In this document: piece after piece, positions 3,193-64,000 of the stretch
Numbering within the stretch: position 1 is the stretch's first letter
Layout: each line of letters begins with the position of its first letter
NCBI GenBank assembly: GCA_022414725.1
Contig: CM039463.1
Location: 79,905,183-79,969,182, forward strand
Direction: 5' to 3'
Origin: Microglena sp. YARC
Lineage: Eukaryota > Chlorophyta > Chlorophyceae > Chlamydomonadales > Chlamydomonadaceae
DNA: 64,000 bases
Notes under the pieces: generated by a model
What the model was told of the DNA's origin: nothing
Database searches by the model: none
What the model saw: only the letters and a program-made list of their open reading frames with translations
Program-made: the position numbers and the translations under genes

Positions 3193-3286
3193 CAAACATG
3201 CACATACTGTATGAGAACCCAAATACTGACAAAATGGCAAAAAACGAAAAAGCAGAGCTGACTGGCAAAGACTTACGGGAACCTAC

Positions 3287-6167: not shown

Positions 6168-9100
6168 AGAAGCTGTCGCCAGTAAGCTCATCCAGCAGTC
6201 CCCAATGCGCCACCAGTCCAATCACCTTCTCAGGTCTTGCTAGCAGCCACTCACGAAACAATTGCACGCGTGCTGTCAAGTCCTCTGGGGCAAGCAACGC
6301 GTGGAATGATAGGGTACAGTTTGTGATGGTATATGGTATAGATGGTGATGGTTTATGTGATGGTATAGGGTAGGATTTGTGATGGTAGCATTTGGTCCTG
6401 CCCCAAGGTGACCCTACTTCCCCAGGGTACTACAAAGCGCGCGCGGCAGCGCGGTTTTGCGCACGCTTTTCGAGCCCCACTGCGCGTTTCGCGCAGTTTT
6501 TTAACCCCCTAAGGGCGCCGCGCGCAGTTTTTGCGCTTTTTGCACTACAAAGCGCTGACCAATTTGACGTTTGTGTGGTATACACGCTGACCAATTTGAC
6601 AAAATGTAGTACCCTGTACTACCCCACTCCAGCCTCTGGCACATCAATCTTTTAGCCTTTGGTAGTGTAGATTGATTTTATGAACAGGCCAAAGGCAGTA
6701 CCTTCGACCTCTTTGGGGTCGGTAGTATCCCTTTTAGAAGCCTGATACCCAGCAATACACAATATTGTGTGGTATGATGCAGTCCAGGAGTAGCCACCAT
6801 AGGCGTTAATAAGCCCCCCCTCCCCCCCGAGTCCAGGAGTAGCCACATAGGCGTAATAGGCCCCCCCCCTCCCCCGAGTCCAGGAGTAGCCAAATAGCGT
6901 AATAGGCCCCCCCCCCCTCCCCCCGAGTCCAGGAGTAGCCACATAGGCGTAATAGGCCCCCACCCTCCCCCGAGTCCAGGAGTAGCCAAATAGGCGTAAT
7001 AGGCCCCCCCCTCCCCCGAGTCCAGGAGTAGCCACATAGGCGTAATAGGCCTCCCCCCCTCCCCCGAGTCCAGCGAGTAGCCACATAGGCGTAATAGGCC
7101 CCCCCCTCCCCCCGAGTCCAGGAGTAGCCACATAGGCGTAATAGGCCCCCCCCCCTCCCCCCGAGTCCAGGAGTAGCCAAATAGGCGTAATAGGCCCCCC
7201 CCCCTCCCCCCCGAGTCCAGGAGTAGCCACATAGGCGTAATAGGCCCCCCCCCCCCTCCCCTCGAGTCCAGGAGTAGCCAAATAGGGCGTAATAGGCCCC
7301 CCCCCTCCCCCGAGTCCAGGAGTAGCCACATAGGCGTAATAGGCCTCCCCCCCTCCCCCCGAGTCCAGGAGTAGCCACATAGGCGTAATAGGCCCCCCCC
7401 CTCCCCCCGAGTCCAGGAGTAGCCACATAGGCGTAATAGCCCCCCCCCCTCCCCCCGAGTCCAGGAGTAGCCAAATAGGCGTAATAGGCCCCCCCCCTCC
7501 CCTTGAGTCCAGGAGTAGTCACATAGGCGTAATAGGCCCCCCCCCCTCCCCCGAGTTCAGGAGTAGCCAAATAGGCGTAATAGGCCCCCCCCCCCCTCCC
7601 CCCCCCGAGTTCAGGAGTAGCCAAACAGGCCAAATGGACTTGCCCATCCTCAAATATTGAGATCATTCATGACTATCAGGAGGGGCTTCACAACATTTCA
7701 GACTTGCAGCCTTGGAAGAGGTAGAGACCTTCTCTCCGTGCTGTCGTGCGGTAGTCCAAGCTCAGGCGCAGCTTAATACCTCGCACCACCAGGCGTTATC
7801 ATACCCCTGATACAAACACCTGCCACAGTGCAGCAGATCTCCCTGCACCACCCTGCCCTACACACATTCCAGTTTAAGCACTACAAAACACGCACAGCCC
7901 AGCTGCCCAGCACTACATCCCCTGACTCAGGAAAAGCTCCCTGCCGCACCCTGCACTACACTACTTCCGGCGCATGCAGTGCAAAACACACAGCCCAGCA
8001 CTACATCCCCTGATGCAGCGTAATCTGCCATCTGCACCCTTTACTACACTCTGTATGGCTCAAGCACTGTAAAACACACAACCCTGCAATACGTCCCCTG
8101 GAGCAGTGAAATCTCCCTGCCGCAACCAGCAATACACTACTTCTGGCGCATGCAGTACAGAACACACAGTCCAGCACTACATCCCCTGATGCAGCGTAAT
8201 CTCCCTGCTGCACCCAGCACTACACTCCTTAAAGCTCAAGCACTATAAAACACACAGCCCAGCACTAATCCCCTGGGGCAGTGTAATCTGTCTGCCGCAT
8301 CCAGCAATACACTACTTCTGGCGCATGCAGTACAGAACACACAGTCCAGCACTACATCGCCTGATGCAGCGTTATCTCCCTGCCGCACCCAGCACTACAC
8401 TCCTTATGGCTCAAGCACTATAAAACACACAGCCCAGCACTAATCCCCTGGGGCAGTGTTATCTGTCTGCCGCAACCAGCAATACACTACTTCTGGCGCA
8501 TGCAGTACAGAACACACAGTCCAGCACTACATCGCCTGATGCAGCGTAATCTCCCTGCCGCACCCAGCACTACACTCCTTATGGCTCAAGCACTACAAAA
8601 CACACAGCCCAGCACTAATCCCCTGGGGCAGTGTTATCTGTCTGCCGCAACCAGCAATACACTACTTCCGGCGCATGCAGTACAGAACACACAGTCCAGC
8701 ACTACATCCCCTGATGCAGCGTAATCTCTCTGCCGCACCCAGCACTACACTACTTCGGGCGCATGCAGTACAAAACACATACAGATCAGCACTTCATCCC
8801 CTGATGCAGCATAATCTCCCTGCCGCACCCTACACTACACTACTTCCAGCCCATGCAGTACAAGACACACAGCCCAGCACTACATCCACTGATGCAGCGT
8901 AATCTCCCTGCACTACACACGTAGTTTTTCTTTCCAGCTACGACTAGCAGCTTCTAGGCAGCTGTCTAGGCTCAGCTCAGCTTCTAGGCAGCTTCTAGGC
9001 AGCTGTCTGGGCTCTCTCTCCATCCAAACATAAAGCATCCTAGGCACCTGGAAGCTGATATCGTCAGCTTACCAGTGCTACTGGAATCTTTGGTTTTGGC

Positions 9101-12100
9101 CCAGTGACAGTCTCAGGGAGCTGCCTAGAAGCTGGTGCTGGTAGCCAAATAGAACAAGTCCTATGCAGCGTCGTAAGCGATGCGGAAAATTGGCGGAGAG
9201 TGTAGGCAACGGAACACCAGGTGGCAACGGACTGGAGCTAACCAAAGTCAGTTAGTTAAAACAGTTGGCTGGCGTGTCAGTCAATTATTCAGTCGGTCGG
9301 TCGGACAAATGGACAATGGAGCGAATCTGGGGGCTCCCGCCCCCCAGGAGGAGAGCTCCCGCCAAAAACAGTGACTACACACCTTCAGGCTCAAGCACCA
9401 CATGCTTAGGGTCTTTATTACCACCGTTGCTCCACCAAATGGCCGGGAGATGGCTGAAGGAATATCTGCAAAGATTGGAAGGGGGAGGGTGGAGTGTGAG
9501 TACTGAAACAAAATTGTGAAGGTTACAGGGGGAGGGGCAGGAAAACAGATTTTGACCGGATCATCAAAACATTATTCAATTCAGATGGGGGTTGGAATTG
9601 CGGATGTTTCAGACAGAAGGATGGGAAAGTAAAGTTTAAAAAAAGATTCGGGTTTCGGCCGGGTTTCGGTATTGAATTGAGAGTTAAGAGCAGTCCAGTC
9701 CGAGTATGGTGGATAGGGGTTAGTTTTTGCAATCAAAATCCCAATTCTTTTTATCTTATTCCTGTTTATTTTTAAACTTGTTTTTTCTTATATTTGTTTT
9801 TTTATCTTATTCCTGTTTATTATGAAAAAAGAAAAAAACGTATTCCTGTTTATTGTTTTATTTGTTTTTTCCTGTTTATTGTTTAAATCCCAATCCTTTT
9901 TATCTTAGTCTTATTCCTGTTTGAGATACGTCAGAATACTACATTTGGTACTACATGACTTGTTGTAATAATCATGCTATACATGATGTAATAATCATGA
10001 TATACATATCCCTACTATACAAAAGCAGCAGCAGCAGCAGCACCACCACCACACCCTCAGGCCTAGCTGCATGCAGCAGCGCCGCCACCACCACCACGTA
10101 CTGCATACATAATGCACCGGTATACTACAAAATACAACAATACTGCATACTGCAGAACACTACATGCTACACTAAAAAACAGCATGACCGTTGTGGGTCA
10201 TAAGTAATGATAACGCCTGGTGGGGCATGGTATTAAGGGAGACCCGCCTTATGGCGAAAGGGAACGGGCTGCTACTTCACCTAATACTAAAGTGCACCCG
10301 TAGGGATTTGAACCCTGCACCTTCTTCGTTCAAGGTGCTCTGCCATTGATCCATTCGTCGAAACGGGAATGCTGTGCGGCTTACCTTTCTGCCGGCCAGT
10401 TGCGTGCAAGCTCCTCCGGAGATGAGCCACAATCTGAGGACAGCCACACGCGCTCACGCGCCAATGCCTCTACCACAACTGGTACATCCATGTGGCCAAA
10501 GGCAAAGTCTGCAGTTTGAAGAGCTCGGGTGAGCGGGGACACCACAAGCACCTGCCGTAGGGGTAGCGCAATGTCAGCGAGGGGTTGGGGTCCAGAGGGT
10601 GGGTGAGACAGAGGGAGAGAGGGTGGGTGGGTGGGTGGGTGGGGGGGGGAATTGATGGTTTGCTATGCTTTGCTAGGTTGTGCTGGGGGCACCTGAGGCC
10701 TTCCGATAAGAGCTTTGACCTACCTCTGCGCCAAGCCCCCCGCTGCTCTTCCCTCACATCCTCCTCAACTGCACCCCTCCTCCTCCCTCCCTGCCCATTT
10801 CCCTCTTTCCCCCTCCCCCCCCCCCTCCCTCCTACCCTCCCTCCCTCCTCAACCCCCTCGCTATCCCTCCCTAATCCCCCCTCCCCCTTCCCTCTCCCTT
10901 CCCCCCCCCCCCCCCCCCCCCCAACCCCCTCCCCCCACCCAACACTCAGGCGCACCTCAGGCTTCCCGGCAAGGGCTTTCACCTTCCTGGACGCCATCTT
11001 GGCCCCCTCCTCCCCCTGCCTCCCCCCCCCCCCCAAAAAAAAACACTCAGGCGCACCTCAGGCTTCACGGCAAGGGCCCCCTCCCTCCCCCTCCCTTATC
11101 CTCCCCCCCCCTCCCCTCTCCCTCCCTTGTCCCTCCCGTCCCCCCCTCCCTTCTCCCTCACTCGTCCCCCTCTCCCCCCCCCCCCCAACACTCAGGCGCA
11201 CCTCAGGCTTCACGGCAAGCGCTTTGACCTTCCTCGACGCCATCTTGGCCCCCTCACGCCCATCGGGTGTCAACACAGTATCAAAGCTGCGTAGCATGGG
11301 GGCTGGTATAAGTATTGGTATAATATTGGCATGACAACAATATTGAGCCCATTGGTGATCGTATTGGTTTAATATTGGCATGACAATATTGAGTCCATTG
11401 GTGGTAGTATTGGTATAATAGTGGCATGACGACAATACTGAGCCCATTGGTATAATAGTGGCATGACGACAATATTGAGTCCATTGGTGATAGTATTGGT
11501 ATAATAGTGGCATGACAACAATACTGAGCCCATTGGTATAATAGTGGCATGACGACAATATTGAGTCCATTGGTGATAGTATTGGTATAATAGTGGCATG
11601 ACGACAATACTGAGCCCATTGGTATAATAGTGGCATGACGACAATATTGAGCCCATTGGTGATAGTATTGGTATAATATTGGCATGACGACAATACTGAG
11701 CCCATTGGTGATAGTATTATTACTGTTATAACAATGGTCTGATGACACTGTCGCATGCATTGGTGCTAGTCAGATTATTAGCATGACGGCAATATCGCTC
11801 ACATTGGTGATTGTATCATGACTGTTATAACATTGGTCTGATGACACTGTCGCATGCATTGGTGCTTGTCATATTATTGGCATGACGGCAATATCGCTCA
11901 CATTGGTGATTGTATCATGACTGTTATCATATTGGTATGATGACACTGTCGCTTGCATTGGTGCTAGTAATTCAATTGGCATGACGACAATATCGCTTAC
12001 ATTGGTGATACACTGATATTACTATTGATGTTATAATATTGGTATGATGTCACTGCCGCTTGCTTTGGTTCTTGTCATATTATTGGCATGACGGCAATAT

Positions 12101-15073
12101 CGCTCACATTGGTGATAGTATCATTCCTGTTATCAAATTGGTATGATGACAGTGTCGCTTGCTTTGGTTCTTGTAATAGTATTGGCATGACGGTAATATC
12201 GCTCACATTGGTGATTGTATCATGACTGTTATCATATTGGTCTGATGACACTGTCGCATGCATTAGTGCTAGTCAGGTTATTGGCATGACAACAATATCG
12301 CTCACATTGGTGATTGTATCATTCCTGTTATCACATTGGTCTGATGACACTGTCGCATGCATTGGTGCTAGTCAGATTATTGGCATGACGGCAATATCGC
12401 TCACATTGGTGATTGTATCATGACTGTTATCAAATTGGTATGATGACACTGTCGCTTGCTTTGGTTCTTGTAATAGTATTGGCATGACGACAATATCGCT
12501 CACATTGGTGATTGTATCATGACTGTTATCATATTGGTCTGATGACACTGTCGCATGCATTAGTGCTAGTCAGATTATTGGCATGACGACAATATCGCTC
12601 ACATTGGTGATAGTATCATTCCTGTTATCACATTAGTCTGATGACACTGTCGCATGCATTGGTGCTAGTCAGATTATTGGCATGACGGCAATATCGCTCA
12701 CAATGGTGATTGTATCATGACTGTTATCAAATTGGTATGATGACACTGTCGCTTGCTTTGGTTCTTGTAATAGTATTGGCATGACGACAATATCGCTCAC
12801 ATTGGTGATAGTATCATTCCTGTTATCACATTGGTCTGATGACACTGTCGCATGCATTGGTGCTAGTCAGATTATTGGTATGACGACAATATCGCTCACA
12901 TTGGTGATTGTATCATGACTGTTACAACATTGGTATGATGACACTGTCACTTGCATTGGTGCTTGTCATATTATTAGCATGACGACAATATCGCTCACAT
13001 TGGTGATAGTATCATTACTGTTATCATATTGGTCTGATGACACTGTCGCTTGCATTGGTGATAGTAATACTATTGTGATGACGACAATATCGCTCACATT
13101 GGTGGTACAGTACTACCACAATATGGCATTGTTTTTAGTGTCACTGTTTTTCTTTTCATAATTATACAGGTTGTACAGCAGAAGTTGCGACGCAAGCCTA
13201 ATTTCAGGATTGTGGCATAGCATGGTGCAGGGCAGAGCGTGAAACGCGGAGCCACGGGGGGGTTGGGGGGGGAGAGTGTCGCACTGGGGTTGCACCAAGT
13301 CGCTCAATTTGCGACACGTTGCACACAACAAAACAGCAACTTTGGACAGTGGCTGTGGACGAGACAGTACAACCTGAAACAAATATAATACAAAATCTTA
13401 TTATCATTACCTGAAACCAGCCTGAAACAAAGAAAAATACTACATGCTACAATGTTTACCGACAGCAGCACAGTGAGCATGAGATGAAGCAGAATATAAT
13501 ATATGTATGCATGCATGTATGTTTAACGACAGCAGCACACTGAGCATGAGATGAAGCAGAATAGAATGAATGTTTAATGCATGTAATGTATGTATGAATG
13601 TATGTTTGACGACAGCAGCACACTTAGCATGAGATGAAGCAGAATTGTTGATCAGTGTTAAAGAAATAAGGTTACCATTCGTCAATTCTACTTGTCATGC
13701 CGAACTCAAATATCTAATGTAGTGCACATCTCACAAACTCACAATATAATTCAAACTGAACATGAAGCAGACTCACAATCCAGGATAATAATGAGTTATG
13801 ATAACTCTGATGATAACCCACAATCCAGTATAATTATGAGTTTTGATAACTTGAATGATAACTCACACTCGCTCACACTCCTGTATAATTATGAGTTATG
13901 ACTTATGATAACTCGGATGATAACTTACAATCCTGAATAATTATGAGTTATGAAATCTAGGATGATAACTTGGATGATAACCAACAATCCTGAATAATTA
14001 TGAGTTATAAAATCTAGGGTGATAACTTGAATGATAACTAACAATCCAGAATAATTTTGAGGTATGGTATCTTGAATGATAACTTGGACGGTAACTCACA
14101 ATCCAATATATTTATGAGTTATGAAATCTAGGATGATAACTTGGACGGTAACTCACAATCCAGGATCCCTGAAGGTTCCACTGCCATAAGGATTATTCCG
14201 CAAGAAGACGTTCATCTCAGTAGTCCCATGCCTCATTGCATGGATCACCTGCAGGGCACACAGTATATGATAACTACGTAGCATATTGTACGGCATAGTC
14301 TTCTCAGTAGTCCCATGCCTCATTGCATGGATCACCTGTAGGGTACGCGGTATATGATAACAAGGTAGCAAGTTGTACTGCACAGTCATCTCAGTAGTAC
14401 CATGCCGCATTGCATGGATCACCTGCAGGGCACACAGTATATGATAACAAGGTAGCATACTGTGCGGCACAATCATCTCAGTAGGTCCATGCCGCATTGC
14501 ATGGATCACCTGTATGGACTGGATCCTGTAGAGCCTATAGATTCTGATCAAACTTGGCATTTTCTACAACATAGTCAACTGAAGTACATAGTTTAATGTA
14601 TTGCTCTTTGCGCAAAATGTGTGATAACTTCTGGAATTTGTATGCTCATTAGTTGTGTGGCTTGACACCTGTAGCTTTTAGATATCACAGGAAGAGGACC
14701 TCACATCCATTCCAACCACAGCTGATAACAGTCCCGACCATGCCTTCATACATGCCCACCACTGATAACAGTCACAACCATGCATCCAACCACAGCTGAT
14801 CACAAACACCACCATGCCTCCATTCACGCCCACGACTGTTGATAAAAGTCACGACCATGCCTCCATACACGCCCACCACTGCTGATAACACCCATGCATG
14901 CCTACCACACTCTGGTGAAAACACCACCATGCCACCATGCATGTCCACCACAGACTGATAACAATGGCTGGTACACCTTCCTACCACATGTCATCTGCAT
15001 AATTTATCACCTTTCCTCCCTTGGAAATAACCGCCTCGTGGGCAGCGCCCTTCCGATTCCATGGTACATTCAT
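6168..15073 (-). CDS. Histidine phosphatase superfamily (phosphoglycerate mutase-like) protein, 3' end missing
   Basis: Exons, 5' to 3' on the minus strand: 15073-15011, 14248-14157, 11286-11202, 10551-10385, 9465-9383, 6284-6168. All junctions are GT-AG and phases agree across all five introns, giving 202 residues so far. Branch-1 histidine phosphatase hallmarks are present in order: RHG at residues 27-29 in VIHAMRHGTTEMN (nucleophile His28), SPLTRALQTA at 85-94 (second Arg89), ARER at 111-114 (candidate acid Glu113), and LVAHWGLLDELTG at 187-199 (second His190). Such enzymes transfer or hydrolyse phosphate through a phosphohistidine; the substrate cannot be told. No targeting peptide is obvious in the 21-residue first exon, and the start ATG is chosen because it opens the exon whose donor fits phase 0. 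Exon 6 ends in phase 1, so at least one further exon must lie toward or beyond the left edge. Exon 2 has four acceptor and five donor copies; any of the four acceptors could be the one used. Confidence 0.88.
6423..6616. mobile_element. hAT-like MITE (CAGGGTACTAC ends)
   Basis: A 194-bp unit starting CAGGGTACTAC and ending GTAGTACCCTG. It is flanked by TACTTCCC (6415-6422) and TACTACCC (6617-6624), an 8-bp target duplication matching at 7 of 8 positions. The interior is rich in GCGC runs (GCGCGCGGCAGCGCG, CGCGCAG). It lies in phosphatase intron 5. The same family occurs at 3287 and 18932. The hAT superfamily assignment rests on the CAGGG terminus and the duplication length. Confidence 0.75.
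6620..6790 (-). other. Intronic unique sequence
   Basis: Between the MITE and the minisatellite lies about 150 bp of non-repetitive sequence. On the minus strand it reads open into the minisatellite and would encode a short peptide ending in a stop near 6652. An AG-GCTTCTAAAAGG acceptor-like site is present, but the phosphatase phases join exon 5 to exon 6 without it, so I do not count it as an exon. Confidence 0.3.
6790..7632. repeat. 48-bp minisatellite, about 17 units
   Basis: The unit is GAGTCCAGGAGTAGCCA, then CATAGGCGTAATAGGCC or AATAGGCGTAATAGGCC, then a C8-C13 TCCCCCC tract. Variants with CACATAGG and CAAATAGG are intermixed. Length differences fall mostly in the C runs. Because the unit lacks stop codons, three minus-strand frames stay open for 217-286 codons (Gly-rich); these are not genes. 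It lies in phosphatase intron 5. The first part of the unit resembles the TACAGTCCAGGGGTAGCCAA end of the dispersed family seen at 37922. Confidence 0.95.
7805..8915. repeat. Tandem repeat of about 90-95 bp, about a dozen units
   Basis: Units contain CCCAGCACTACA, TTCTGGCGCATGCAGTA, CAGAACACACAGTCCAGC and CCCCTGATGCAGCGTAATC, with alternating sub-types (GGCGCATGCAGTACAGAAC versus GGCTCAAGCACTATAAAAC), so the repeat has a higher-order dimer structure. It lies in phosphatase intron 5. Short open frames within it are repeat frames. Confidence 0.9.
8927..9152. mobile_element. MITE-like inverted-repeat element, AGCAGCTTC family
   Basis: The left end TTCCAGCTACGACTAGCAGC, with TTCTAGGCAGCT repeated three times nearby, and the right end AGCTGCCTAGAAGCTGGTGC are inverted copies. 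It is a member of the family described at 1364; the left end is internally triplicated. Confidence 0.6.
9725..9925. repeat. AT-rich tandem repeat, TATTCCTGTTTATT units
   Basis: Irregular repeats of TTTTTATCTTATTCCTG and TTTATTATT over about 200 bp in phosphatase intron 4. No gene is seen. Confidence 0.85.
10204..10368 (-). mobile_element. tRNA-derived SINE-like element
   Basis: On the minus strand the element starts with a tRNA-like head: TGGATCAATGGCAGAGC resembles the D-arm/A-box, and GGGTTCAAATCCC is a T-arm/B-box. The body ends CCACCAGGCGTTATCATTA. The anticodon stem-loop does not fold as a standard tRNA and no acceptor stem pairs, so it is not an intact tRNA gene. The copy at 45670-45850 shares the tail and has another tRNA-like head; tail fragments occur at 7770-7802. 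Pol III SINEs have this head-plus-tail layout. It lies just downstream of phosphatase exon 4, in intron 4. Confidence 0.55.
10692..11201. repeat. Donor-edge repeats of phosphatase exon 3 in a C-rich tract
   Basis: On the minus strand, GCCAAGATGGCGTC...AAGCCTGAGGTGCGCC, the last 40-60 bases of exon 3 plus its 5' splice site, recurs downstream in the intron. The authentic donor follows 11202; copies have the same edge at about 11057, 10956 and (diverged) 10692. They are separated by C/T-rich tracts with long C runs. The two nearest copies keep the GTGCGCC donor. Confidence 0.8.
11290..11712. repeat. Tandem repeat, GGCATGACGACAATATTGAG units
   Basis: Units combine GGCATGACGACAATA(T/C)TGAG, CCCATTGG and TGATAGTATTGGTATAATA in two spacings. 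The array begins immediately upstream of phosphatase exon 3 and merges into the 99-bp array that follows, with which it shares GGCATGACGACAATAT. Three minus-strand frames stay open by lack of stops. Confidence 0.9.
11715..13110. repeat. 99-bp satellite with a 297-bp higher-order period
   Basis: About 14 units with landmarks GATGACACTGTCGC, TGCATTGGTGCTAGTC, GGCATGACG(A/G)CAATATCGC and TCACATTGGTGAT. Identical 62-codon minus-strand frames recur at 12075, 12372 and 12669, exactly 297 bp apart, showing that 99-bp monomers amplified as trimers. It lies in phosphatase intron 2. Confidence 0.92.
13215..13345. repeat. Dispersed GTCGCACT...TGCGACACGT element
   Basis: GTCGCACTGGGGTTGCACC, then GTCGCTCAATTTGCGACACG and AACAAAACAGC. 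A related copy lies at 42240-42305 (GTCGCACTAGGGTCGCAC, TGCGACACGTCGCACT, AACACAACAGC). Both are preceded by a CGCGGAGCC- or CGCGGGG-type GC-rich stretch. Origin unknown; probably a degenerate non-autonomous transposon. Confidence 0.5.
13440..13645. repeat. Tandem repeat, GACAGCAGCACACTGAGCAT units
   Basis: Three units of CAGCAGCACA, then GAGCATGAGATGAAGCAGAA, followed by ATG-rich spacer with ATGCATG motifs. It lies in phosphatase intron 2. Confidence 0.85.
13770..14156 (-). repeat. Donor-edge repeat of phosphatase exon 2, exact 57-bp period
   Basis: The 5' splice site region GGATT|GTGAGTTACC recurs into the intron. GT-starting donor hexamers lie on the minus strand at 14156, 14099, 14042, 13985 and 13928, reading GTGAGT, GTGAGT, GTTAGT, GTTGGT and GTAAGT. 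They are exactly 57 bp apart, and more diverged units extend to about 13770. Between them the unit reads TTATCATCCTAGATTTCATA-like sequence. The first donor (14156) fits the phase of exon 3. The others would add in-frame-length segments but meet a TGA immediately after the authentic exon end. Confidence 0.85.
14160..14525 (-). repeat. Acceptor-edge repeat of phosphatase exon 2, exact 87-bp period, four in-frame RHG copies
   Basis: On the minus strand, CAG or TAG|GTGATCCATGCAATG, the first part of exon 2 with its 3' splice site, occurs with exon starts at 14509, 14422, 14335 and 14248. Spacing is exactly 87 bp (29 codons), and each copy has an intact AG. The frame is open from 14560 to 14153, so each copy encodes VIHAMRHG(T/P)TE(M/K) in the same frame. 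Use of an outer acceptor would add 29, 58 or 87 residues without a stop. Confidence 0.9.
14690..14960. repeat. Tandem repeat, CCACAGCTGATAACA units
   Basis: About six irregular units of CTGATAACA(G/C), then CATGCCTCCAT and CATGCCCACCA. It lies in phosphatase intron 1, between exon 1 (15011) and the exon 2 repeats. I could not relate it to the exon 1 edge. Confidence 0.75.
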
Positions 15074-17690: not shown

Positions 17691-18105
17691 TACCTCCATC
17701 CATCAGCCCTGTGTTGAAGCCTATTGCTCCTCCCGAGCTTCAACAATCTCAGTTGGCTTGGTCTAGATGCCTCTTGCCTCACTTGAGCTTCTGCCACCTC
17801 AGGTGGCTTGGTCTCAATACTTATTGATTCATGGATGGCACAACCACCGACGTAGCCTCATCAACCTTAGTTGGTTTGGTCTCAATGCCTCCTGCTTCAC
17901 TTCAGCTTAAGCAGCCTCAGTTGGCTTGGTCTCAATGCCTCCTGCCCCACACGAGCTTGAACAGCCTCAGTTGGCTTGGTCTCGATGCTTATTGCTTCAT
18001 GGAGGGCACTACCACCAACGTAGCCTCATCAACCTCAGTTAGCTTGGTCTCAATGCCTCCTGCTTCACTTCAGCTTTACAACCTCAGTTTGCTTGGTCTC
18101 AATGC
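17690..18105 (-). repeat. Tandem repeat of ALB3 coding 3' end including its stop codon
   Basis: Downstream of the ALB3 stop, segments such as GAGACCAAG, ACTGAGG, GAGGCTAC and CCCTCCATGAAGCAATAAG recur. CATGAA(G/T)CAATAA, the last codons plus stop, is seen at about 18106, 17990 and 17818. So the outer edge of the last exon, here a stop codon instead of a splice site, has been tandemly copied downstream as the internal exon edges have. Confidence 0.8.
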
Positions 18106-21100: not shown

Positions 21101-21683
21101 GCAATCTATGTTGTCTATTAAAACACATAGCAATGTATGCTGTCTGCTGGAACATTTAGAAATCTATTTTGTCCATTGAAACATGTAGCAATCTATATTG
21201 TCTGTTGAAACATGTAGCAATCAATGCTACAACTCACCAATCATGAAGGGAAGGAACTTAAGGATAGCCATGGTCTGTGCGGCTGAGGGGTCGGCGTTCT
21301 GCAATCATCAGGGACAACACAGAGGAGGCAGGTAAGGGGGTAAGGCAATCAGCAGGAGATGTGTTCAGAAGTATACATGGATAGCCATTCCCTGCGCGTC
21401 TGGGGGGGCGGCCTTTTGCATTCAGTAGGGGCAGCACAGGGGAGGCAGGTAAGGGGGCAAGGCAATAAGCAAGATGTGTGTTCATAAGTATACATGGATT
21501 GCTTTTTTCCTTTTTTTCTTCTAGCTTCATGATAGCTAAGCCTCCTCCATGGACAGCATTTTAGTGCTTTTCTAGCTTTAAAAAGCGTTGCCAGCTTTTA
21601 AGGACCACCAGGAAAACAAACATTATTTGTTTTCCTATTTACAGCGACATTTTCGCCTGAATGGGGTCAAAAACTACCAATCG

Positions 21684-21753
<70 letters not shown>

Positions 21754-25676: not shown

Positions 25677-25742
<66 letters not shown>

Positions 25743-25749
25743 AGGGAGG

Positions 25750-25781
<32 letters not shown>

Positions 25782-28497: not shown

Positions 28498-28528
<31 letters not shown>

Positions 28529-31986: not shown

Positions 31987-37083
<5,097 letters not shown>

Positions 37084-46272: not shown

Positions 46273-46340
<68 letters not shown>

Positions 46341-49848: not shown

Positions 49849-49895
<47 letters not shown>

Positions 49896-55800: not shown

Positions 55801-58800
55801 ATCACGTTTATTGAGCACATATATATTGGAGCACATCATCGTTTATTGAGCACATAACGTTTATTGAGCACATCATCGTTATTGAGGCCACATCATCGAT
55901 TTATTGAGCACATCATCGTTTTGAGCCACATCAATCGCTTATTGAAGCACATCATCGTTTGATTGAGCATTATTTAATCGTTTAGCATATAATTGTTTAT
56001 TGAGCACATATCGTTATTGAACACATAAATTGTTTTATTGAGCACATCATCGTTATTGGAATCATCGTTATTTAGCACATCATCGTTTATTAGCACATCA
56101 CGCTCATTGAGCACATCATTTGAGCATATGAGCATTCATTTATTTATGAGCACATCATTTTTTATTGAGCACATCATCGTTTATTGAGCATATCATCATA
56201 TTTATTGAGCACACATTGTTTATTGAGCACATCATCGTTTTATTGAAGCACATTTCGTTTATTGAGCACATAATCGTTTATTGAGCACATCATCGTTTAT
56301 TGAGCACATCATCGTTTATTCCAGCACATCATCGTTTATTGATGCTCATATATTGTTTTCCTCAGTACATAATCGTTTCCTCAGTACATAATAGTTTCTT
56401 AAGCACATAATCGTTTATTGAGCACATCATCGATTAAGCCATGTGGGTGTGTACACACTCGTCACAAATAAACTCGACACAACATCCATGCAACATAAAC
56501 TCTCTCCACATAGCATCTGCACAACACAACATTAACACAACATAGCACGCAATCCATGCAACATTACCTCCCTCCACACAACTTAACCTCCCTCCACACA
56601 ACATAACCCCATCTACCCAACATAACCCCCATCCATACAACTTAACCTCCATCTACCCAACATAACCCCCCTACACACAATACCTGCACAAAATAATCTA
56701 CATACAAAATAACCTACATACGAAATAACCGACATAATAAATAACCGACATACAAAATAACCTCCTTTCACATAATATCCTCATAAAATAACCTCGACAC
56801 GACATAACCTCCTTCTAAACGACATCACCTCGACAAAACCCAACATTCACACAAAGCAACCTGCACACAACACAGCCTCACTCATACAACATAATCCTCC
56901 CCTTCACACAATATCCACACAAAATGACTCGACACAGAACCTCCACGCACATTACCTCCCTCTACACAAACACAAATCTGGACACAACCCAACATTCGCA
57001 CACATAACCTCCCTCCACACAACATAACCCCCTCCATAAAAACATATAATTTATCTGTTGTGCTGTGCGCAGGCTTCTGGGAGCTCTTTGCCGACTGGAG
57101 AACCCAGTCTTTCAAGGGGCCGGCACCTAGTGCATCTGTGCTCACGCAAAGCTCCGTAGGAAAGGTGTGTGTGTGGTATATATTGGTGTGTGTGGGTAAA
57201 CTGCGTAGGAACGGTGTGTGTGTGGCAAAACATGCGTAGGAACGGTGTGTGGTGTGGCTAACCTGCGTAGGAACGGTGTGTGTGGGGGTGGGGTGGGGTG
57301 GGTGTGGGGGGCTATATTTCAGTGCTCGGTTTGCCTAGCAAGCTGCGTAGGAACGGTGTGTGTTGGGGGGGGTGGGGTGTGGTGTGTGTGTGGGGGGGGC
57401 TAATTAAACTGCATTCGGTTGGCTAAGCAAGCTGCGTATGGAAAGGTGTGTGTGGTGTGTGGTGTAAGGGGGGGATGGGGGGGGGGGGGGGGGGGGGGCT
57501 TTTTTTTACTCATCGGTTGCCTAGCAAGCTGCGTAGGAAAGGTGTGTGTTGTGTGTGTGGTGTAGGGTGGGGATGGGGGGGGGGGGGGGGGGGGGGGGGC
57601 CTTTATTTACTGCATCGGTTTGCTAGGAAGCTGCGTAGAAAGGTGTGTATGTGTTGGTGTTGTCTGTAGGGTGAAGCTGTGGGGGGGTGGGGGGCTATAT
57701 TCTACTGCATCGTTGCTACAAGCTGCGTAGGAAAGCGTGTGTGTTGTGGGTGGGGTTGGGGGGGGTGAGGGGGGGGTCTATAATTTTACTGCGATCGGTT
57801 GCTAGCAAGCCTGCGTAGGAGCAGTGTGTGTGGTGACTGTGTGTGTGGTGTGTCGTGTGGGGGGGGGGGGGAGGTAGGGGGGGGCGCGTGAGTGGCGAGG
57901 GGGGGGGGCTCATTTATGTCTTAACTGCATATGGGTTGCTACAAACACGCTGCAAGCTAGGAAAGTAGTGTGTAGTGTGTGTGTGTCGTGGGGTGGGGGG
58001 GGGGGAGGGCTATATTTACTGCATCGGTTGACTAGCTAAGCTGCGTAGGAAAAGGTGTGTGTGTGTGTGTGTGTGTAGGTGTGGAAGGTGTGGGGGGTGG
58101 GGCGGCTAATATTTACTGCATCGGTTGCTAGCAAGCTGCGTAGGAAAGCGCTTGTGTGGTGTGTTGTGTGTGTGGGGTGGGGGGGGGGGGGCCTATAGTT
58201 ACTGCATCGGATTGCTAGGGCAAGCTGCGTAAGGAAAGGTGTGTGGTGTGTGTGTGTGCTGTGTGTGGGGGGGTGGGGGGGGTGGGGGGGGGGGGGGGGG
58301 GGGGCCTCTATATTTTACTTGTGCATCGGTGTGCTAGTCAAGCTGCGTAGGAGAAGGTTGTGTGTGTGGTGGGTGGGTGGGTGGGTGGGTGGGTGGGGGC
58401 TATATTCAATGCATCGGTTGAGCAAGCTGCGTATGGAAGTGTGTTGTGTGTGTGTGTAGGGTTGGTGGGGGGGGGGGGGGGGGGTGGGGGGGGCTATATT
58501 ACTGCATCGGTTGCTAGCGCTGCGTAGGAAGGTGTTTGTGGGTGGGGTGGGGGGTGGGGGTCTGTGTGGGGGGTGGGGCTAGGTGTGTGTGTGTGTGGGG
58601 GGGGGCTATATTATACTGCATCGAGTTGCTAGAAGCTGCGTAGGAAAGGTGTGTAGTGTGTGGGTGTGGGTGTGGGGGGGGTGGGGGTGGGGGAGGTGTG
58701 TGGTGTGGGGTGGGGGTCTATATTTACTCGCTCGGTTGCTAGCAAGCTGCGTAGGAGGGTGTGGTGTGGTGTAGGGTGAAGGTGTGGGGGGTGGGGGCTT

Positions 58801-61800
58801 ATTTACTGATCGGTTGCTAGCAGCTGCGTAGGAAGGTGTGTGTGTGTGTGTGTGTGTGTGCTGTGTGTGGGGGGGGGGCTTATATTACTTGCATTCGGTT
58901 GCTAGCAGCTGCGTAGGAAAGGTGTGTGTTGTCGGTGTGTGTGGGGGGGGGGGGGGGCTATATTTAACTGCTTTCGCGTTGCTAGCAGCTGCGTAGGAAG
59001 ATGTGTGTGTGTTGTGGGGGGGGGGGGGGGGGCCTATATTTCTCATCGGTTGCTAGCAAGCGCGTAGGAAGGTGTGTGTGTGTGTGTGTGTGTAGGGTGG
59101 GGATGGGGGGGGGGGGGGGGGGGGGGGGGATCATTTACTGGCATCGGTTTGCTAGCACAAGCTGCGTAAGTTGAAAGGTGTGTGTGTGTTGGGTGGGGGA
59201 GGTGGATGGTGGGGGTGGACCGTGAGAGTACTGGGGAGGGAGGGGGTGGGGGGGGGGGGGAAGGTGTGTGTGTGTGGGGGAGGGGCCTCTTTTACTGCTT
59301 CGTTGCTATTAGCAAGCAGCGTAGGAAAAGGTGTGTGTGTGTGGGGGGGGTGTGGGGGGGGGGTGTGGGGGGTGGGGGGTGTGTGTGTGGGGGGGGGGGA
59401 GGGCTATTTTACTGGCACAAATCGGTTGCTAGCAGGCTGCGTAGGAAAGGTGTGGTGTGTTGTGTGGGTGNNNNNNNNNNNNNNNNNNNNNNNNNNNNNN
59501 NNNNNNNNNNNNNNNNNNNNNNNNNNNNNNNNNNNNNNNNNNNNNNNNNNNNNNNNNNNNNNNNNNNNNNNNNNNNNNNNNNNNNNNNNNNNNNNNNNNN
59601 NNNNNNNNNNNNNNNNNNNNNNNNNNNNNNNNNNNNNNNNNNNNNNNNNNNNNNNNNNNNNNNNNNNNNNNNNNNNNNNNNNNNNNNNNNNNNNNNNNNN
59701 NNNNNNNNNNNNNNNNNNNNNNNNNNNNNNNNNNNNNNNNNNNNNNNNNNNNNNNNNNNNNNNNNNNNNNNNNNNNNNNNNNNNNNNNNNNNNNNNNNNN
59801 NNNNNNNNNNNNNNNNNNNNNNNNNNNNNNNNNNNNNNNNNNNNNNNNNNNNNNNNNNNNNNNNNNNNNNNNNNNNNNNNNNNNNNNNNNNNNNNNNNNN
59901 NNNNNNNNNNNNNNNNNNNNNNNNNNNNNNNNNNNNNNNNNNNNNNNNNNNNNNNNNNNNNNNNNNNNNNNNNNNNNNNNNNNNNNNNNNNNNNNNNNNN
60001 NNNNNNNNNNNNNNNNNNNNNNNNNNNNNNNNNNNNNNNNNNNNNNNNNNNNNNNNNNNNNNNNNNNNNNNNNNNNNNNNNNNNNNNNNNNNNNNNNNNN
60101 NNNNNNNNNNNNNNNNNNNNNNNNNNNNNNNNNNNNNNNNNNNNNNNNNNNNNNNNNNNNNNNNNNNNNNNNNNNNNNNNNNNNNNNNNNNNNNNNNNNN
60201 NNNNNNNNNNNNNNNNNNNNNNNNNNNNNNNNNNNNNNNNNNNNNNNNNNNNNNNNNNNNNNNNNNNNNNNNNNNNNNNNNNNNNNNNNNNNNNNNNNNN
60301 NNNNNNNNNNNNNNNNNNNNNNNNNNNNNNNNNNNNNNNNNNNNNNNNNNNNNNNNNNNNNNNNNNNNNNNNNNNNNNNNNNNNNNNNNNNNNNNNNNNN
60401 NNNNNNNNNNNNNNNNNNNNNNNNNNNNNNNNNNNNNNNNNNNNNNNNNNNNNNNNNNNNNNNNNNNNNNAGGCCCCACCTCCTTCACACCCAACAAATC
60501 CCTCCCTACCTTACCGCCCGTACGTTCTCCACAACTCCCTCCCTCTCTCCCAACGCCAATGCAGGACTGAGCGAGAGTTGTCCCAAAGGCTGGCTCTCAA
60601 TATTTTGTATCCCCCCTCTGCCCTTCACAACCCCACTCCCCACCCTTCCCCCCTCCCTCGTCCCACCCAAATCCCTCCCTCCCCACTACCAATCCCTCCT
60701 TCCTCCACAACTCCCTCCCTCTCTCCCAACTCCGATGCCGACTGAGGCAGAGTTGTCCCAACAGCTGACTCCTTTATTTATGCCCATTCCCCTTCAGCCT
60801 CTTACAGCCCCAACCCCAACCCCCCCCTCCCATCACCTACCCTTCCCTTCCTTTTCCACAACTCACTCCACTCTCTCCTCAACTCCAATGCAGACTGAGA
60901 AGAGTTGTCCCAACAGGCTGGGCTCTTTCTTCATGCGCCTCAAGCTGGTGATGGAGGCCTTCAAGGAATACGTCATGCCCACTGTCAACATCTCAGGGGA
61001 TTGTTCATCTCTCTCTTATATATATATATATATATTAATATATATATATAATTTATTTATAAACGTCTGTTAAACCTGATATATTACATGTATTACTAAC
61101 TGTGGAGTCCCCTTCAAGGAAGTATAATGCCCAACTGCTTCAGTATCTCAAGCGTATGCTAAAGATAACTTGTCTGTACAGCTGCCTATTGTAACTGTCT
61201 ATATAAATGTATTATAAGTGGTGGAGGCCTTCAAGGATACGCACGCCCACTCAATAATCTGCAAAGCTTTGTACTATAACGCGTCAAATATAAGCGTCTA
61301 TATAAGTCTATACACATGCCTATATAACTGGTTGAGGCCTTTGAAGGAGAAACCCCGGCTGCCTTCAACATCTCAAGGTCTGCTATATATACATGCATAT
61401 ATATTAAGTGTCATGACACATGTCTATATTAAGTGTCATATACACATGTCTATTATAACTGGTTGCGCCTTGCAGGAGATCGCCGCTGCTTATGAAACAG
61501 TCCACGGTATGTATTTATAACGCGTCTATATAACACAGTCTATATAGCACCGGTATATATGACGTTCTAATATAACAGTCGTAGTATGTACAGGTCTATA
61601 TAACTGCTGTTGAGGCCTTGAAGGAGATCGCCGCTGCCTTCCAAACTCTCACGGTAAGTACGTATATAATGTACTATAATATAACTGGTGAGGCCTTGAA
61701 GGAGAACGCCGCTGCCCTTATTCAACATCTCACGTATGTATAATAACAGAGTCTACTATAACTGTCTATATAACTGGTTGAGGCCTTGAAGGCAGAAACC

Positions 61801-63537
61801 GCTTGCCTTCAATATCTCACGGTATGTATATAATTGGTTTATTATAACAGTCTATATAACTGGTTGAGGGCCCTTGAAGCGAGATCGCCGCTGCCCTTTT
61901 AAACATCTCACAGCCATGCTACTATAACGTCTAATAACAGTCCTATATAACCTGGGAGGCCTTGAAGGAAACGCCGCTGCTTTAAACATCTCACGGTATG
62001 TTATATATAACGGTCTATATAACAGTCTAGGTATTTAGCCGGATATAATATGACGTTTCTAGTATAACAGTCTATTATAACGTCTATATAAACTGGTTTG
62101 AGCCTTGAAGGAGCATCGCCGCTGCTTCAACATCTCCACTAGGTTAAAGTATAATATTAATGTATATTATAAACCTGGTTGAGGCCTTGAGGGAACGCCG
62201 CTGCTCTAAACATCTCACGTATGTATAAACTTGTTCCTATATAACTTCCTTATACAACTGTTGAGGCCTTGAAGGAGAAAGCCGCTCATTCTATCTCCGC
62301 TATGTTATAATGTCTCATCTAACAGTCTAATAACTGTGAGCCTTTAAGGGAGATCGCCGCTGCTTTAACATCTCCAGCATGTAACTATAACGTACTATTA
62401 TACAGCTATATAACTGTTGAGCTTGAAGGAGAACGCCGCTGCTTAAACATCTCACGGGCTATGTATTAACGGTCATTATAACGTTATATAATTGGTTGCC
62501 TTTGAAGGAGACGCCGGATCCTTCAACTCTCAGTCATTGGTCGCTCTGGTTTTGTCGAAAGGAGACCCACCTCGGGTTGAAATTCATTTCAACAACTTAA
62601 AAAAGTGAAGTATCGGGAGCGGAGCTATGTCTACAGCGAAATAAATGTGTATGGTCAAGCACACACCCCAAAACACTGCACCACCATATCAGGGTAAAGA
62701 CGAACACTAAGAGAAAGAGCACAGCCTTCAGAATGGAGCTGGGTTCAGTTATAGCCGGACGGTCTAGCCGCAGCAAAACATAGAGCACAGACAGCTATCG
62801 CTGACATTATCTTAACTATTGGAAAGCACTGTTGTGGTGTGACTCACCCACACACTATGTAGCAGCAGATTGGTATGAGGGTCCACCCATGCTCCCCACA
62901 CTCTACATACACATTGAAACTTCAGCACATGTGCATTTCAGATGTGTGCAATTCATCATGTGCCAGCATGATATTCAAAGTGATATTCCCTTGGGATCCG
63001 TCAAGCTGCGGGCACATTTGGAGTCCGTAGGCGGCACCAGGACAAATTCTTCATTATCTCAGATAGCATCGCATCATCAAAAATGCTATTATCAGCATCT
63101 CATCATCAGCAAGCGCAGCAGGCAGCGCGGCATCAGCTCATCAGCATCATCAGCTACAGCATCATCAGCATCACCGCACATCATGCAGCAGCATCATCAT
63201 TCAGGCTCGTGCATCATTTTAGCAGTTGCATCATTTCATGCATGTGCCAGCAATTAGGCATGCTGCAATTCAGCAAGTGCATTTTAGGCGTGTGCCAATT
63301 CAGTCATGTGCAGTCATAAATTTCAGCACCGTGCAAAGTAATCCACACTCAGCACTTGCACCGCCAGCCACAGGCAGCTACGCACACATCACCAGCACCA
63401 GCATCAGCATCAGCATCATTTCATGCATGTGCCTCATACAGCCCTCCTTGCCCTCCTAACCTCTTTCCATACCCAATGACAGGCGGAAGTACATCCCTCC
63501 TAACTTCGCAGGCTCAGACATCGTCAACATTGCACAG
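47467..63537 (+). CDS. Unrecognised plus-strand gene, 3' end beyond window
   Basis: Exons: 47467-47635 (tentative; 56 codons, Ser/Arg/Thr-rich, transit-peptide-like, phase 1 donor GACA|GTGAGT); 57073-57164 (30 codons containing FWELFADWRTQSFKGPAPSA, fits phase 1, donor AAAG|GTGTGT); 60894 to about 61001 (containing MRLKLVMEAFKEYVMP); 63483-63537 (RKYIPPNFAGSDIVNIAQ, donor CAG|GTATAG). Phases agree at each join I can test. Exon 3 needs two compensating single-base corrections to match its own repeat copies (TEEELSQQ-like start), as expected in noisy sequence; its donor is not visible in place but is seen in the copies as TCACG|GTATGT. Intron 1 would be 9.4 kb and consists of satellites. I do not recognise the family. 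Exons 2-4 all have massively reduplicated edges, and intron 2 contains the assembly gap. Confidence 0.5.
47984..48143. mobile_element. 160-bp foldback element with TA flanks
   Basis: CGGCAGCCTGCACCTGTTCA, continuing GGTTGTTAACAGGTGT, at the left is inverted at the right as ACACCTGTTTAACAACC, then TGAACAGGTGCAGGCTGCCG: about 40 bp of near-perfect inverted repeat around an 80-bp AT-rich centre. TA lies at 47982-47983 and 48144-48145. This is a typical small MITE; transcribed, it would form a long hairpin. It lies in intron 1 of the plus-strand gene. Confidence 0.75.
48328..48508. mobile_element. Palindromic ATATGATATCAT element, most complete copy
   Basis: Outer ends CACCATGGTTAGGGATCGGC and GCCGTTCCCTAACCATGGTG are inverted, enclosing TATGATATCATATGATATCA at both sides and the GGCGGTCTGACTAGGTAAC block. 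Copies at 34495, 39256 and 50980 share the interior. Confidence 0.75.
48560..48725. repeat. TAATATTA-rich palindromic stretch
   Basis: AATAATATTATATAATATTA at 48570-48605 and ACTAATATTA / TAATATTAGT blocks to 48712 form several inverted repeats. CTAGTAGCCTTCCAGGTGA brackets it as a direct repeat (48520-48537 and 48710-48729, GTAGCCTTCCAGGTGAT), so an AT-rich element may have inserted or the segment duplicated. Confidence 0.6.
48817..49013. mobile_element. MITE-like inverted-repeat element, AGCAGCTTC family
   Basis: AGCTTTTCTTTTCAGCAACG at the left and GCAGCCGAAAATAAAAGCT at the right are inverted, with the GACAGCTTCTAGACAGCTCC / AAGAAGCTTCTGCTC interior. Right-half units (GGCTCAGGGAGCTACCAAGA, AGCTTCTGCTCGTAGCCG) are included in the following tandem repeat at 49398 and 49738. 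Confidence 0.7.
49210..50045. repeat. Tandem repeat, TATGTGGCACATGAGCTAC units
   Basis: About six units of varying length (about 120-280 bp) containing AGCAAGGTGCACTATGTGGC, ACATGAGCTACTTACGTATA, TGTATATGCATCAATATTAT and ATCATAAAAATCCCTGCAGA. Two include half of an AGCAGCTTC-type MITE that was co-amplified. A (TATATG)n tract lies at 49850-49965. Confidence 0.85.
50090..50590. repeat. GTGTTACACTGTG arrays
   Basis: 50090-50300 has about three 66-72-bp units of GTGTTACACTGTGTTATGC and GTTGCACAGTGTTAAATT. 50305-50590 has three units of about 118 bp with CACTGTGGGCTCTTGCGGAT, CAGGATAGTGTA, ATCATCCTT and GACATCATATGATATCA. On the minus strand the larger unit is open and ends in a stop (GYTILIPHWNPQEPTV then TAA), so it could be an amplified 3' coding edge; no gene is established. 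Confidence 0.7.
50589..50985 (-). repeat. 54-bp tandem repeat with an in-frame 18-residue period
   Basis: About 6.5 units containing GCATGATGCGTACTGCTTAA, CATTTTGGGCGCGTTGACTC and ACAAACACCCCCTC. The minus-strand frame is open for 136 codons (50982-50572) with period KQYASCEGVFVSQRAQNV, preceded by the non-repeat MRPHTPDYDGEDGVLI. Every unit carries TTTGTGAGTC, a 5' splice-site-like sequence, so the array resembles the donor-edge arrays seen at known exons. No protein family recognised. Confidence 0.7.
50980..51117. mobile_element. Palindromic ATATGATATCAT element, truncated copy
   Basis: TAATATCATTTGATGCCGGC, AGTCTGACTAGGCTTAAGTT and TTTGGTCAACACCATATGAT match the copy at 34495 closely. The left terminus is shortened. 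Confidence 0.65.
51190..51550. repeat. Tandem repeat, ATAATCATACATACTATAATCA units
   Basis: About ten units of 33-34 bp: ACTATAATCAAATAATTAAT, then CATAATCATAC. The minus-strand Ile/Met frames (51250-51432) are repeat frames. Confidence 0.92.
51570..51670. other. Short unique segment with coding-like character on both strands
   Basis: CCCGCAG at 51654-51660 (minus strand) is followed by an open minus frame (RRRIDDAKEPNYKCPQLDET) ending at TAG. On the plus strand the same bases contain TTTCGTCAAGCTGTGGGCAC, related to segments at 50318, 50432, 51133 and 63000. I cannot decide which strand, if either, is coding. Confidence 0.3.
51700..56435. repeat. 19-bp satellite, about 245 copies
   Basis: The unit is GTTTATTGAGCACATCATC with frequent variants CATAATTG and CATAATCG. 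Copies are nearly exact from 51775 to about 53430, then increasingly carry single-base insertions and deletions. This fits unpolished long-read sequence better than biological divergence, because substitutions do not increase in step. Flanking degenerate units (CCTCAGTACATAATAG, TTTCTTAAGCACATAAT) occur at both ends (about 51735-51775 and 56355-56405), so the array has matching boundaries. It lies in intron 1 of the plus-strand gene. Confidence 0.97.
56440..57060. repeat. Degenerate ACACAACATAACCTCC repeats
   Basis: Irregular CCTCCCTCCACACAACATAA and CATACAAAATAACC units up to the acceptor of the plus-strand exon at 57073. Minus-strand Met/Leu/Gly frames are not supported as genes. Confidence 0.85.
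57165..59470 (+). repeat. Donor-edge repeats of plus-strand exon 2, about 25 copies
   Basis: Exon 2 ends ACGCAAAGCTCCGTAGGAAAG|GTGTGTG. The array unit is CATCGGTTGCTAGCAAGCTG, then CGTAGGAAAGGTGTGTG, plus a G-rich tract and TATATTTACTG, repeating about every 85-110 bp. Many units keep AAAG|GTGTGT. The copies resemble each other more than the authentic exon end, so the array was homogenised after the first duplication. Indel noise is heavy. The array runs into the assembly gap. Confidence 0.85.
59471..60470. other. Assembly gap, exactly 1000 N
   Basis: One run of 1000 undetermined bases, a conventional placeholder length, so its true size is unknown. It lies between the G-rich donor array of exon 2 and the C-rich acceptor array of exon 3, both hard to sequence. 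Open frames spanning it are artefacts. Confidence 1.
60471..60893 (+). repeat. Acceptor-edge repeats of plus-strand exon 3
   Basis: Three copies of AACTCCAATGCAG|ACTGAG, continuing GAGAGTTGTCCCAA(C)AGGCTGG, lie at about 60560, 60735 and 60894 (the last being the exon). They are separated by CCCTCCCT/CCACAACTCCCTCCC tracts, with spacing of about 165-175 bp. The CAG acceptor is intact in the first and last; the middle copy reads ATGCCGACTGAGG. Confidence 0.8.
61002..62535 (+). repeat. Donor-edge repeats of plus-strand exon 3, about 17 copies
   Basis: The unit is GAGGCCTTGAAGGAGATCGC, then CGCTGCCTTCAACATCTCACG|GTATGTATATAAC and TCTATATAACTGGTT, about 85-110 bp. The authentic exon reads GAGGCCTTCAAGGAATACGT at the same place. 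Units nearest the exon (61225, 61333) look intermediate, and distal ones share a common derived version. Many keep CACG|GTATGT. Confidence 0.85.
62536..63040. other. Unique-looking stretch in intron 3 of the plus-strand gene
   Basis: 62535-62600 matches part of the CCAGGAGGTGG-type element (GAGACCCACCTC, GGTTGAAATTCATTTCAAC). The rest shows no firm exon. Plus-strand ATTCCCTTGGGATCCGTCAA, then GCTGCGGGCACATTTGGAG (about 62984-63025), is related to motifs at 50318, 51133 and 51580 and is open (IPLGSVKLRAHLESVGGTR); its status is unresolved. Confidence 0.4.
63040..63440. repeat. CATCATCAGCA / CATGTGCCA low-complexity tract
   Basis: Irregular CATCATCAGCATC repeats and CATTTCATGCATGTGCCAGC, CAATTCAGCA motifs, some appearing twice (62930-62960 and 63235-63310). 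The Ser/Ala/His frames are repeat frames. Confidence 0.8.
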
Positions 63538-64000
63538 GTATAGAGTGGATTGCTAGTGCTCGTTAGGGTGCGTCTGCAAAGGTGGGTGGGTGTGCATGTC
63601 GGTTAAATAACACATAATACCAGCTGAGTAATCGTCAACATTGCACAGTATGAATGGGATGTGCGTGTCCTGCGTTTGGGGGTGCAAAGGGGTGGGGTGA
63701 TGTCCGTTGTATGTATAACACATACATACCAGCTGAGGTACATCGTCAACATTGCACAGGTATGAATGGGATGTTGCATGTCCTGCGTTGGTGGCTGCAA
63801 AGAGATCCGATGTGGGGTAGGATGTCGGTGTGTTATAACACATACATACAGCTGGTGGTACATCGTCAACATTGCACAGTATGAATGGATGTCATGTCCT
63901 GCGTGGGGGGTGCAAAGGGTGTGGTGGGTGGAGTCCGTGTGTGATATAACAATACATACCAGCTGAGGTACATCGTCAACATTGCACAGTATGAAATGGG
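63538..64000 (+). repeat. Donor-edge repeats of plus-strand exon 4
   Basis: Exon 4 ends CATCGTCAACATTGCACAG|GTATAG. CATCGTCAACATTGCACAG, then (G)TATGAATGGGATG and GTCCTGCGT, recurs at about 63629, 63741, 63862 and 63968. Period is about 110-120 bp, and spacers contain TATAACACATACATACCAGC. One copy has intact CAG|GTATGA; the others lack one G, which may be sequencing noise. The array runs off the window. Confidence 0.85.

Follow-up and report, generated by a model that had tools for sequence, protein, structure and literature searches.

At the exon edges of several genes in a 64,000-nucleotide stretch of green algal DNA (the window), segments that cross the exon–intron border are repeated in tandem into the intron. 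An earlier reading made from the sequence alone (the sequence-only reading) had listed about 17 edges as repeated. We found that 11 of the 17 listed edges are spanned by local repeats, that four are repeated on the exon side only, and that two are nominal, with arrays reaching 4–6 exon bases. The arrays are probably mirage-type minisatellites that arose by replication slippage or unequal exchange, and they would be tolerated since splicing is predicted to use the copy attached to the exon body.

The window has canonical spliceosomal introns and a GC content of ~45% (0.33–0.57 per 2 kb). We placed 25 exons in four supported genes: ALB3, a phosphatase with a His_Phos_1 domain, an unrecognised minus-strand gene and an RmlB/RHM-like gene. 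AG or GT was found at 44 of 45 splice contexts as coded; the exception is the donor of ALB3 exon 1, which was coded one base short and belongs to an exon known from a prediction alone (EukProt model P0001). Spliced ALB3, encoded on the minus strand, has 393 residues and matches P0001 (452 residues) at 100% identity; P0001 carries one additional first exon. The best ALB3 matches with a species name come from Chlamydomonas incerta, Astrephomene, Gonium, Volvox and further chlorophytes. The unrecognised minus-strand gene is EukProt model P0121 (99% identity), numbered two places ahead of P0001, and is henceforth called the P0121 gene. The edges of ALB3 and the P0121 gene are supported by these two deposited models, both predicted, and both models splice at the exon-proximal copies. 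A further gene, on the plus strand, is putative: relatives were sought among proteins of 0.55–1.75 times the query length, and none of the 279 candidates scored. Searches of the window with Rfam at gathering thresholds and with ARAGORN at bacterial settings returned no match.

To score an edge, we aligned sequence locally within 3 kb (match +2, mismatch −3, gap −5) and required the alignment to cross the edge. Eight of the listed edges are strongly spanned, with scores of at least 60: ALB3 24387, 24106, 23513, 21298 and the stop codon at 18106, phosphatase 14248 and 11202, and plus-gene 60894. Three are weakly spanned, with scores of 40–60 (plus-gene 57164 and 63537 and the exon 4 donor of the P0121 gene at 40794). 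The exon side alone is repeated at 46195, 45019 and 44893 of the P0121 gene and at the plus-gene exon 3 donor near 61001, and the phosphatase donors 14157 and 6168 are nominal. Border-spanning copies affect both acceptors (24387, 23513, 21298, 14248) and donors (24106, 11202). The RmlB/RHM-like gene, which the sequence-only reading did not mention, has none of its 10 splice edges repeated at score 40. The edge-linked arrays and this gene are as follows.

24338..25392, minus strand: ALB3 exon 5 acceptor array; six copies, with the splice site and 50 bp of exon, upstream of the true edge 24387 (P0001)
23852..24157, minus strand: ALB3 exon 5 donor array; two copies with the donor and 52 bp of exon; true edge 24106 (P0001)
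23477..23806, minus strand: ALB3 exon 6 acceptor array; two copies that include 37 bp of exon; true edge 23513 (P0001)
21262..21499, minus strand: ALB3 exon 7 acceptor duplication; one copy that includes 37 bp of exon, 117 bp unit; true edge 21298 (P0001)
17736..18168, minus strand: ALB3 stop-codon array; ~60 bp of the coding end plus 3' flank, two copies; stop codon ends at 18106
14212..14512, minus strand: phosphatase exon 2 acceptor array; two complete copies plus a partial one, with 37 bp of exon; true edge 14248
13774..14163, minus strand: phosphatase exon 2 donor array; 57 bp units with only ~6 exon bases, score 80; edge 14157
10941..11254, minus strand: phosphatase exon 3 donor; three copies, the third weak, with up to 53 bp of exon; true edge 11202
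6067..6172, minus strand: array at the last listed phosphatase donor, 6168; 31 bp GAA-rich array with ~4 exon bases, score 83; nominal
31988..37083, minus strand: RmlB/RHM-like gene, six exons, between ALB3 and the P0121 gene
46406..46440, minus strand: P0121-gene exon 2 acceptor, one diverged copy; true edge 46195
45232..45628, minus strand: P0121-gene exon 3 acceptor, array with diverged copies of the first ~25 bp of the exon; true edge 45019
44718..44756, minus strand: P0121-gene exon 3 donor, copy of the last 38 bp of the exon with GT changed to GC; true donor 44893
40361..40808, minus strand: P0121-gene exon 4 donor, 109-bp array, one copy, score 48; edge 40794
57148..59470, plus strand: exon 2 donor array of the putative plus gene; 11 noisy scored copies, ~16 exon bases plus GT; edge 57164
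60471..60930, plus strand: exon 3 acceptor array of the putative plus gene; two copies; edge 60894
60953..62540, plus strand: internal stretch of exon 3 of the putative plus gene; repeated copies with donor-like ends in largely unpolished sequence
63519..64000, plus strand: exon 4 donor array of the putative plus gene; three copies, ~18 exon bases; edge 63537

Clear repeats occur at both edges of ALB3 exon 5, and at phosphatase exon 2 the acceptor array is clear and the donor array nominal. For the 109-bp array near 40794, the TRF boundary falls 21 bp short of the edge and the alignment overlap is marginal. Near 61001, GT is absent at the plus-gene donor edge as placed. About 37 bp of exon are included in three acceptor arrays of two genes (14212–14248, 21262–21298 and 23477–23513).

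The units, roughly 55–250 bp in size, are built from the exon and intron of their own gene. Because units from different edges match one another only in C-rich tracts (15 units compared), the arrays are not one element, as the sequence-only reading had concluded in setting aside a single transposon. Two interspersed families do occur in the window. One is MITE-like, ~190 bp long with 40-bp terminal inverted repeats, and is present in several copies in both orientations (35300–35495). The second (41228–41362) is ~130 bp long, with copies 75–86% identical to the query copy.

1366–1555, 8990–9154, 17077–17259, 26655–26841, 35597–35729, 48818–49013: other copies of the MITE-like family
738–870, 3071–3197, 15630–15741, 18769–18886, 26475–26604, 38877–39007: other copies of the ~130 bp family

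Two large short-unit arrays are also present, one of 17 bp × 137 in an intron of the P0121 gene (42400–44709), which the exon 3 donor copy of that gene adjoins, and one of 19 bp × 247 upstream of the second plus-gene exon (51711–56436).

The largest clean array, at the ALB3 exon 5 acceptor, shows a decay of similarity. With growing distance, the identity of its copies to the true edge is 0.92, 0.85, 0.84, 0.83, 0.55 and 0.67. Because similarity drops with distance, the youngest copies appear to be those that adjoin the exon; with regard to concerted evolution inside the array, ends excluded, this decay in one seven-member array is what was observed, and it is not fully monotonic. The two-copy array at ALB3 exon 7 has a 4-bp direct repeat, GGAT, at both ends, as slippage or microhomology joining would leave, and as a single case it proves little.

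We examined the ALB3 exon 5/6 junction in other proteins using two flanking motifs, both of which are held by 96 of the 120 ALB3 matches listed (1990 in all). The motifs are 20 residues apart in 84 of these 96 matches, 15 apart in 11 and 96 apart in one. P0001 has the usual spacing across the junction. The spacing of 96 belongs to P0002, a EukProt model 75% identical over 47% of the ALB3 query, with three extra in-frame repeats of 24–28 residues at this junction (24106 / 23513). P0002 suggests that a relative or paralogue carries an array at this edge, taken as coding either by the annotation or by the cell.

The sequence-only reading had considered that the copies might prove to be assembly artefacts, and the evidence on this differs along the window. 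A run of 1000 Ns (59471–60470) has unpolished and gap-rich flanks, as if it had been gap-filled with raw long reads, and the plus-gene exon 2 donor array consists of unpolished sequence that runs into this gap. Between neighbouring copies at 57–59.4 kb, 14 comparisons gave 93 mismatches and 204 gap columns; at 61–62.5 kb, 6 comparisons gave 56 mismatches and 83 gap columns. Such gap-dominated differences are a mark of uncorrected long reads. Because the differences there are mainly gaps beside the 1000-N gap, the plus-gene copy counts in these two intervals are unreliable. Elsewhere, 14 hand-picked comparisons, six of them from edge-linked arrays, gave 115 mismatches and 6 gap columns, which read error would not yield. 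Because these copy differences are substitutions, the compared arrays outside the plus-gene exons are not read noise; the ALB3 exon 5 arrays lie outside the 14 comparisons, and the acceptor array has gaps in its intron part. P0002, which is another gene model, has repeats at the same ALB3 junction, which also argues against an artefact. We consider it extremely unlikely that the arrays as a whole were created by assembly.

Repeats as such are beyond chance. Local direct repeats make up 46% of the window, and the TRF rows merge to 82 arrays covering 25,450 bp. The evidence for a preference for edges is weak. As the denominator for enrichment we used the 45 splice edges of the four supported genes, with start and stop edges excluded; the plus gene (6 edges) was omitted from every enrichment test as no gene model was found for it. 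At scores of at least 40, 10 of the 45 splice edges are spanned by repeats, as are 1316 of the 2481 points in intron interiors and 15 of the 228 in exon interiors. The 10 edges include the two nominal ones and the ALB3 exon 7 donor (score 46, array ending 12 bp from the edge). The corresponding numbers at scores of at least 60 are 8 of 45, 1129 of 2481 and 14 of 228. The raw comparison between edges and intron points is unfair to the edge hypothesis because many-copy arrays cover many points. After correction for copy number, 10 edges were observed against 7.2 expected (score at least 40) and 8 against 5.3 (at least 60); for units of at least 60 bp, the numbers were 8 against 4.9 and 6 against 3.9. 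The corrected enrichment of 1.4–1.6 is not significant (binomial P 0.11–0.19), and the test is conservative because the interior points include the intron halves of the edge arrays. In a comparison with random placement of founder units, 7 of 27 arrays were observed where 3.7 were expected (P 0.056), 5 where 3.2 were expected if at least 10 exon bases were required (P 0.20), and 7 of 37 where 4.3 were expected with periods down to 10 bp (P 0.12).

The position of whole arrays was also compared with random placement. With cut-offs set after data inspection, in a window picked for its pattern, an edge is found no more than 25 bp away from 7 of the 11 arrays with units of at least 70 bp, where 2.4 would be expected (P 0.002, post hoc). 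The same is true for 9 of all 23 arrays against 3.7 expected (P 0.004, post hoc) and for 2 of 12 short-unit arrays against 1.3. Arrays that truly overlap an edge number 4 among the 11 with long units (1.7 expected, P 0.07) and 5 among all 23 (2.6 expected, P 0.10). A test against uniform placement suggested that the exon parts are short (P 0.002, n = 15) and, at the seven acceptors, alike in length, with 37 bp occurring three times and a reduced spread (P 0.005); we treat both results as leads, as exon-part lengths were set by eye and from TRF bounds. Arrays with 48-bp, 100-bp and 175-bp units are also found far from edges (6781, 33858 and 7905, respectively). A mild edge bias is thus possible, and a strong edge bias lacks support.

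To describe how the copies evolve, we compared them with the true edge, using an anchored alignment, and with one another. Exon-derived parts are 0.89 identical to the true edge and intron-derived parts 0.75, and the exon part is the more similar in 31 of 36 copies with at least 14 bp of exon. Without the plus gene, the values are 0.87 and 0.74 (16 of 20 copies). This difference might be taken for selection on the copies; copy-versus-copy divergence suggests, from six uneven families, that it mostly reflects a constrained true exon. In those families, with the plus gene excluded, mean mismatch between copies is 0.135 for exon-derived and 0.152 for intron-derived sequence, with exon parts lower in four of six; single families range from 0 versus 0.16 to 0.32 versus 0.16 (exon versus intron). 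The plus-gene means are 0.083 and 0.097 (three families), including 0.051 versus 0.182 in the noisy 11-copy family. Changes are distributed over the codon positions as 23/20/33, a slight third-position excess (P 0.051; 16 copies, 8 edges). Because divergence between copies is similar in exon and intron parts and changes are spread over codon positions, the copies look largely as if they change in a roughly neutral way beside a constrained exon, within a small sample. The comparisons differ in their membership. The ALB3 exon 7 donor was counted as an edge match and dropped from the copy tests. Three hand-placed P0121-gene copies and one weak phosphatase copy are in the true-edge comparison and absent from the copy-versus-copy comparison. 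The latter excludes families with fewer than 14 exon bases and includes the stop-codon family, which is absent from the true-edge comparison.

That many copies keep GT or AG, as reported in the sequence-only reading, was confirmed. Of the 27 donor copies, 24 retain GT, where ~17 would be expected from flank decay; if the plus gene is left out, 11 of 13 do so, with 8.7 expected. Of the 15 acceptor copies, 7 retain AG, where ~9 would be expected. The contrast between AG loss and GT retention has a Fisher P of 0.008, which becomes 0.097 without the plus gene and 0.13 with the nearest copies only. Such a contrast would be in keeping with selection that removes decoy acceptors lying ahead of the true site.

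A rival explanation, along the lines of the sequence-only reading, is a process that copies DNA outward from splice edges, for example by template switching at transcription or splicing intermediates. The long-unit arrays crowded at intron ends, the clustered exon-part lengths at seven acceptors and the in-frame repeats of P0002 at the same ALB3 junction would all be accommodated by such copying, as would the excess of tandem repeats near algal junctions, which the available text of a published survey describes as strongest in Chlamydomonas reinhardtii and Volvox carteri, with repeats denser toward intron ends (PMC3887541). Set against this, edges are less often repeated than intron interiors, the corrected excess is not significant, the RmlB/RHM-like gene has no repeated edge, long-unit arrays also lie far from edges, and the window was selected for the visible pattern. 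Edge-anchored copying is therefore not needed to account for the data, and we regard it as unlikely; what stands of that proposal is the concentration of long-unit arrays at intron ends. A related and equally doubtful extension is that green-algal intron ends are hotspots of edge-linked tandem duplication that captures the first 25–50 bp of the exon. Such hotspots would lengthen introns from their ends, would explain the algal junction repeat excess and would occasionally turn copies into protein, at which P0002 may hint.

Selection could instead keep the copies, if spare splice sites were useful or if copies acted as regulated decoys. The excess of GT at donors speaks for this part of the earlier proposal, with the qualification that 14 of these 27 copies belong to the plus gene and that 11 of the 14 lie in unpolished sequence. 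The acceptors, which keep AG less often than flank decay predicts, speak against it, as do the similar mean divergence of exon and intron parts between copies and the near-even spread of changes over codon positions. We consider selection for the copies very unlikely. Slippage, one of the options named in the sequence-only reading, is likely the best mechanism here, although several of the figures above count against it: the proximity of arrays to edges (all arrays and long-unit arrays alike), the weaker excesses in true overlap and founder placement, the short and similar exon parts, the GT excess at donors and the borderline third-position excess.

By the slippage or unequal-exchange explanation, segments crossing an exon–intron border would be duplicated in tandem into the intron by ordinary processes. 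Within a coding exon, a tandem duplication would disrupt the protein and be eliminated, and one wholly inside an intron would be harmless. A duplication that crosses an edge would leave a complete edge beside the exon body, which is the first copy at a donor and the last copy at an acceptor. Edge-spanning duplications would then survive, as one intact edge suffices, and the mRNA would ignore the other copies. Survivors would be seen at edges and in introns because purifying selection removes exon-internal duplications, a loss that we infer alongside the repeat-poor exon interiors of the window.

Dense mirages in a chlorophyte suggest that the structure is no lancelet oddity, and it may be expected wherever tandem duplication is rife. 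They also carry a warning for annotation, as the copies can pass for exons, perhaps in P0002 as in lancelet PGBD5.

Introner elements are a known case of repeated sequence tied to introns. Unlike introner elements, each unit here consists of the exon and intron of its own gene, and no common element was found among 15 units. In the open-licence literature that we searched, 'mirage' is used by name for such repeats in lancelets only (a nematode paper with this word refers to a transposon class), and we recognised no report of border arrays in plants or algae from titles and abstracts, with the exception of potato RdRp. There, according to the available part of the report, one border-crossing tandem duplication made a new intron, with duplicated splice signals (Rogers model; PMC4974935). 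The algal arrays share with this case a duplication across one intron–exon border; unlike the single potato duplication, they have left the usual exon 5/6 spacing of ALB3 in P0001. The algal survey (PMC3887541), in its accessible text, likewise places repeats toward intron ends in Chlamydomonas reinhardtii and Volvox carteri; it deals with intron position and short motifs such as GT/AC, whereas the units here include exon sequence.

The closest system is that of the lancelet mirages, described in the available portions of two reports for Adh3, the globins BflGb6 and BflGb9, TnC and PGBD5 (PMC3087553, PMC3902484). The sequence-only reading had stated that no system of this form was described, which the lancelet repeats contradict. 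Undisturbed splicing, haplotype variation and somatic instability are reported for lancelets, and automatic annotation made a coding exon from the PGBD5 repeats. The authors of the globin study considered the mechanism unclear, and mirages were proposed as a route to new introns (PMC3087553, PMC3902484). As far as these texts go, the likeness extends to tandem repeats that span the border at acceptors and donors and to the keeping of AG or GT in many but not all copies; lancelet units measure tens of bp to ~160 bp, and those of the alga up to ~250 bp. The algal case differs in its host, a green alga, in the number of affected edges, with 11 spanned in several genes within 64 kb, and in its 46% background of local repeats. 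The arrays are a known kind of structure, the lancelet mirage, in a new lineage.
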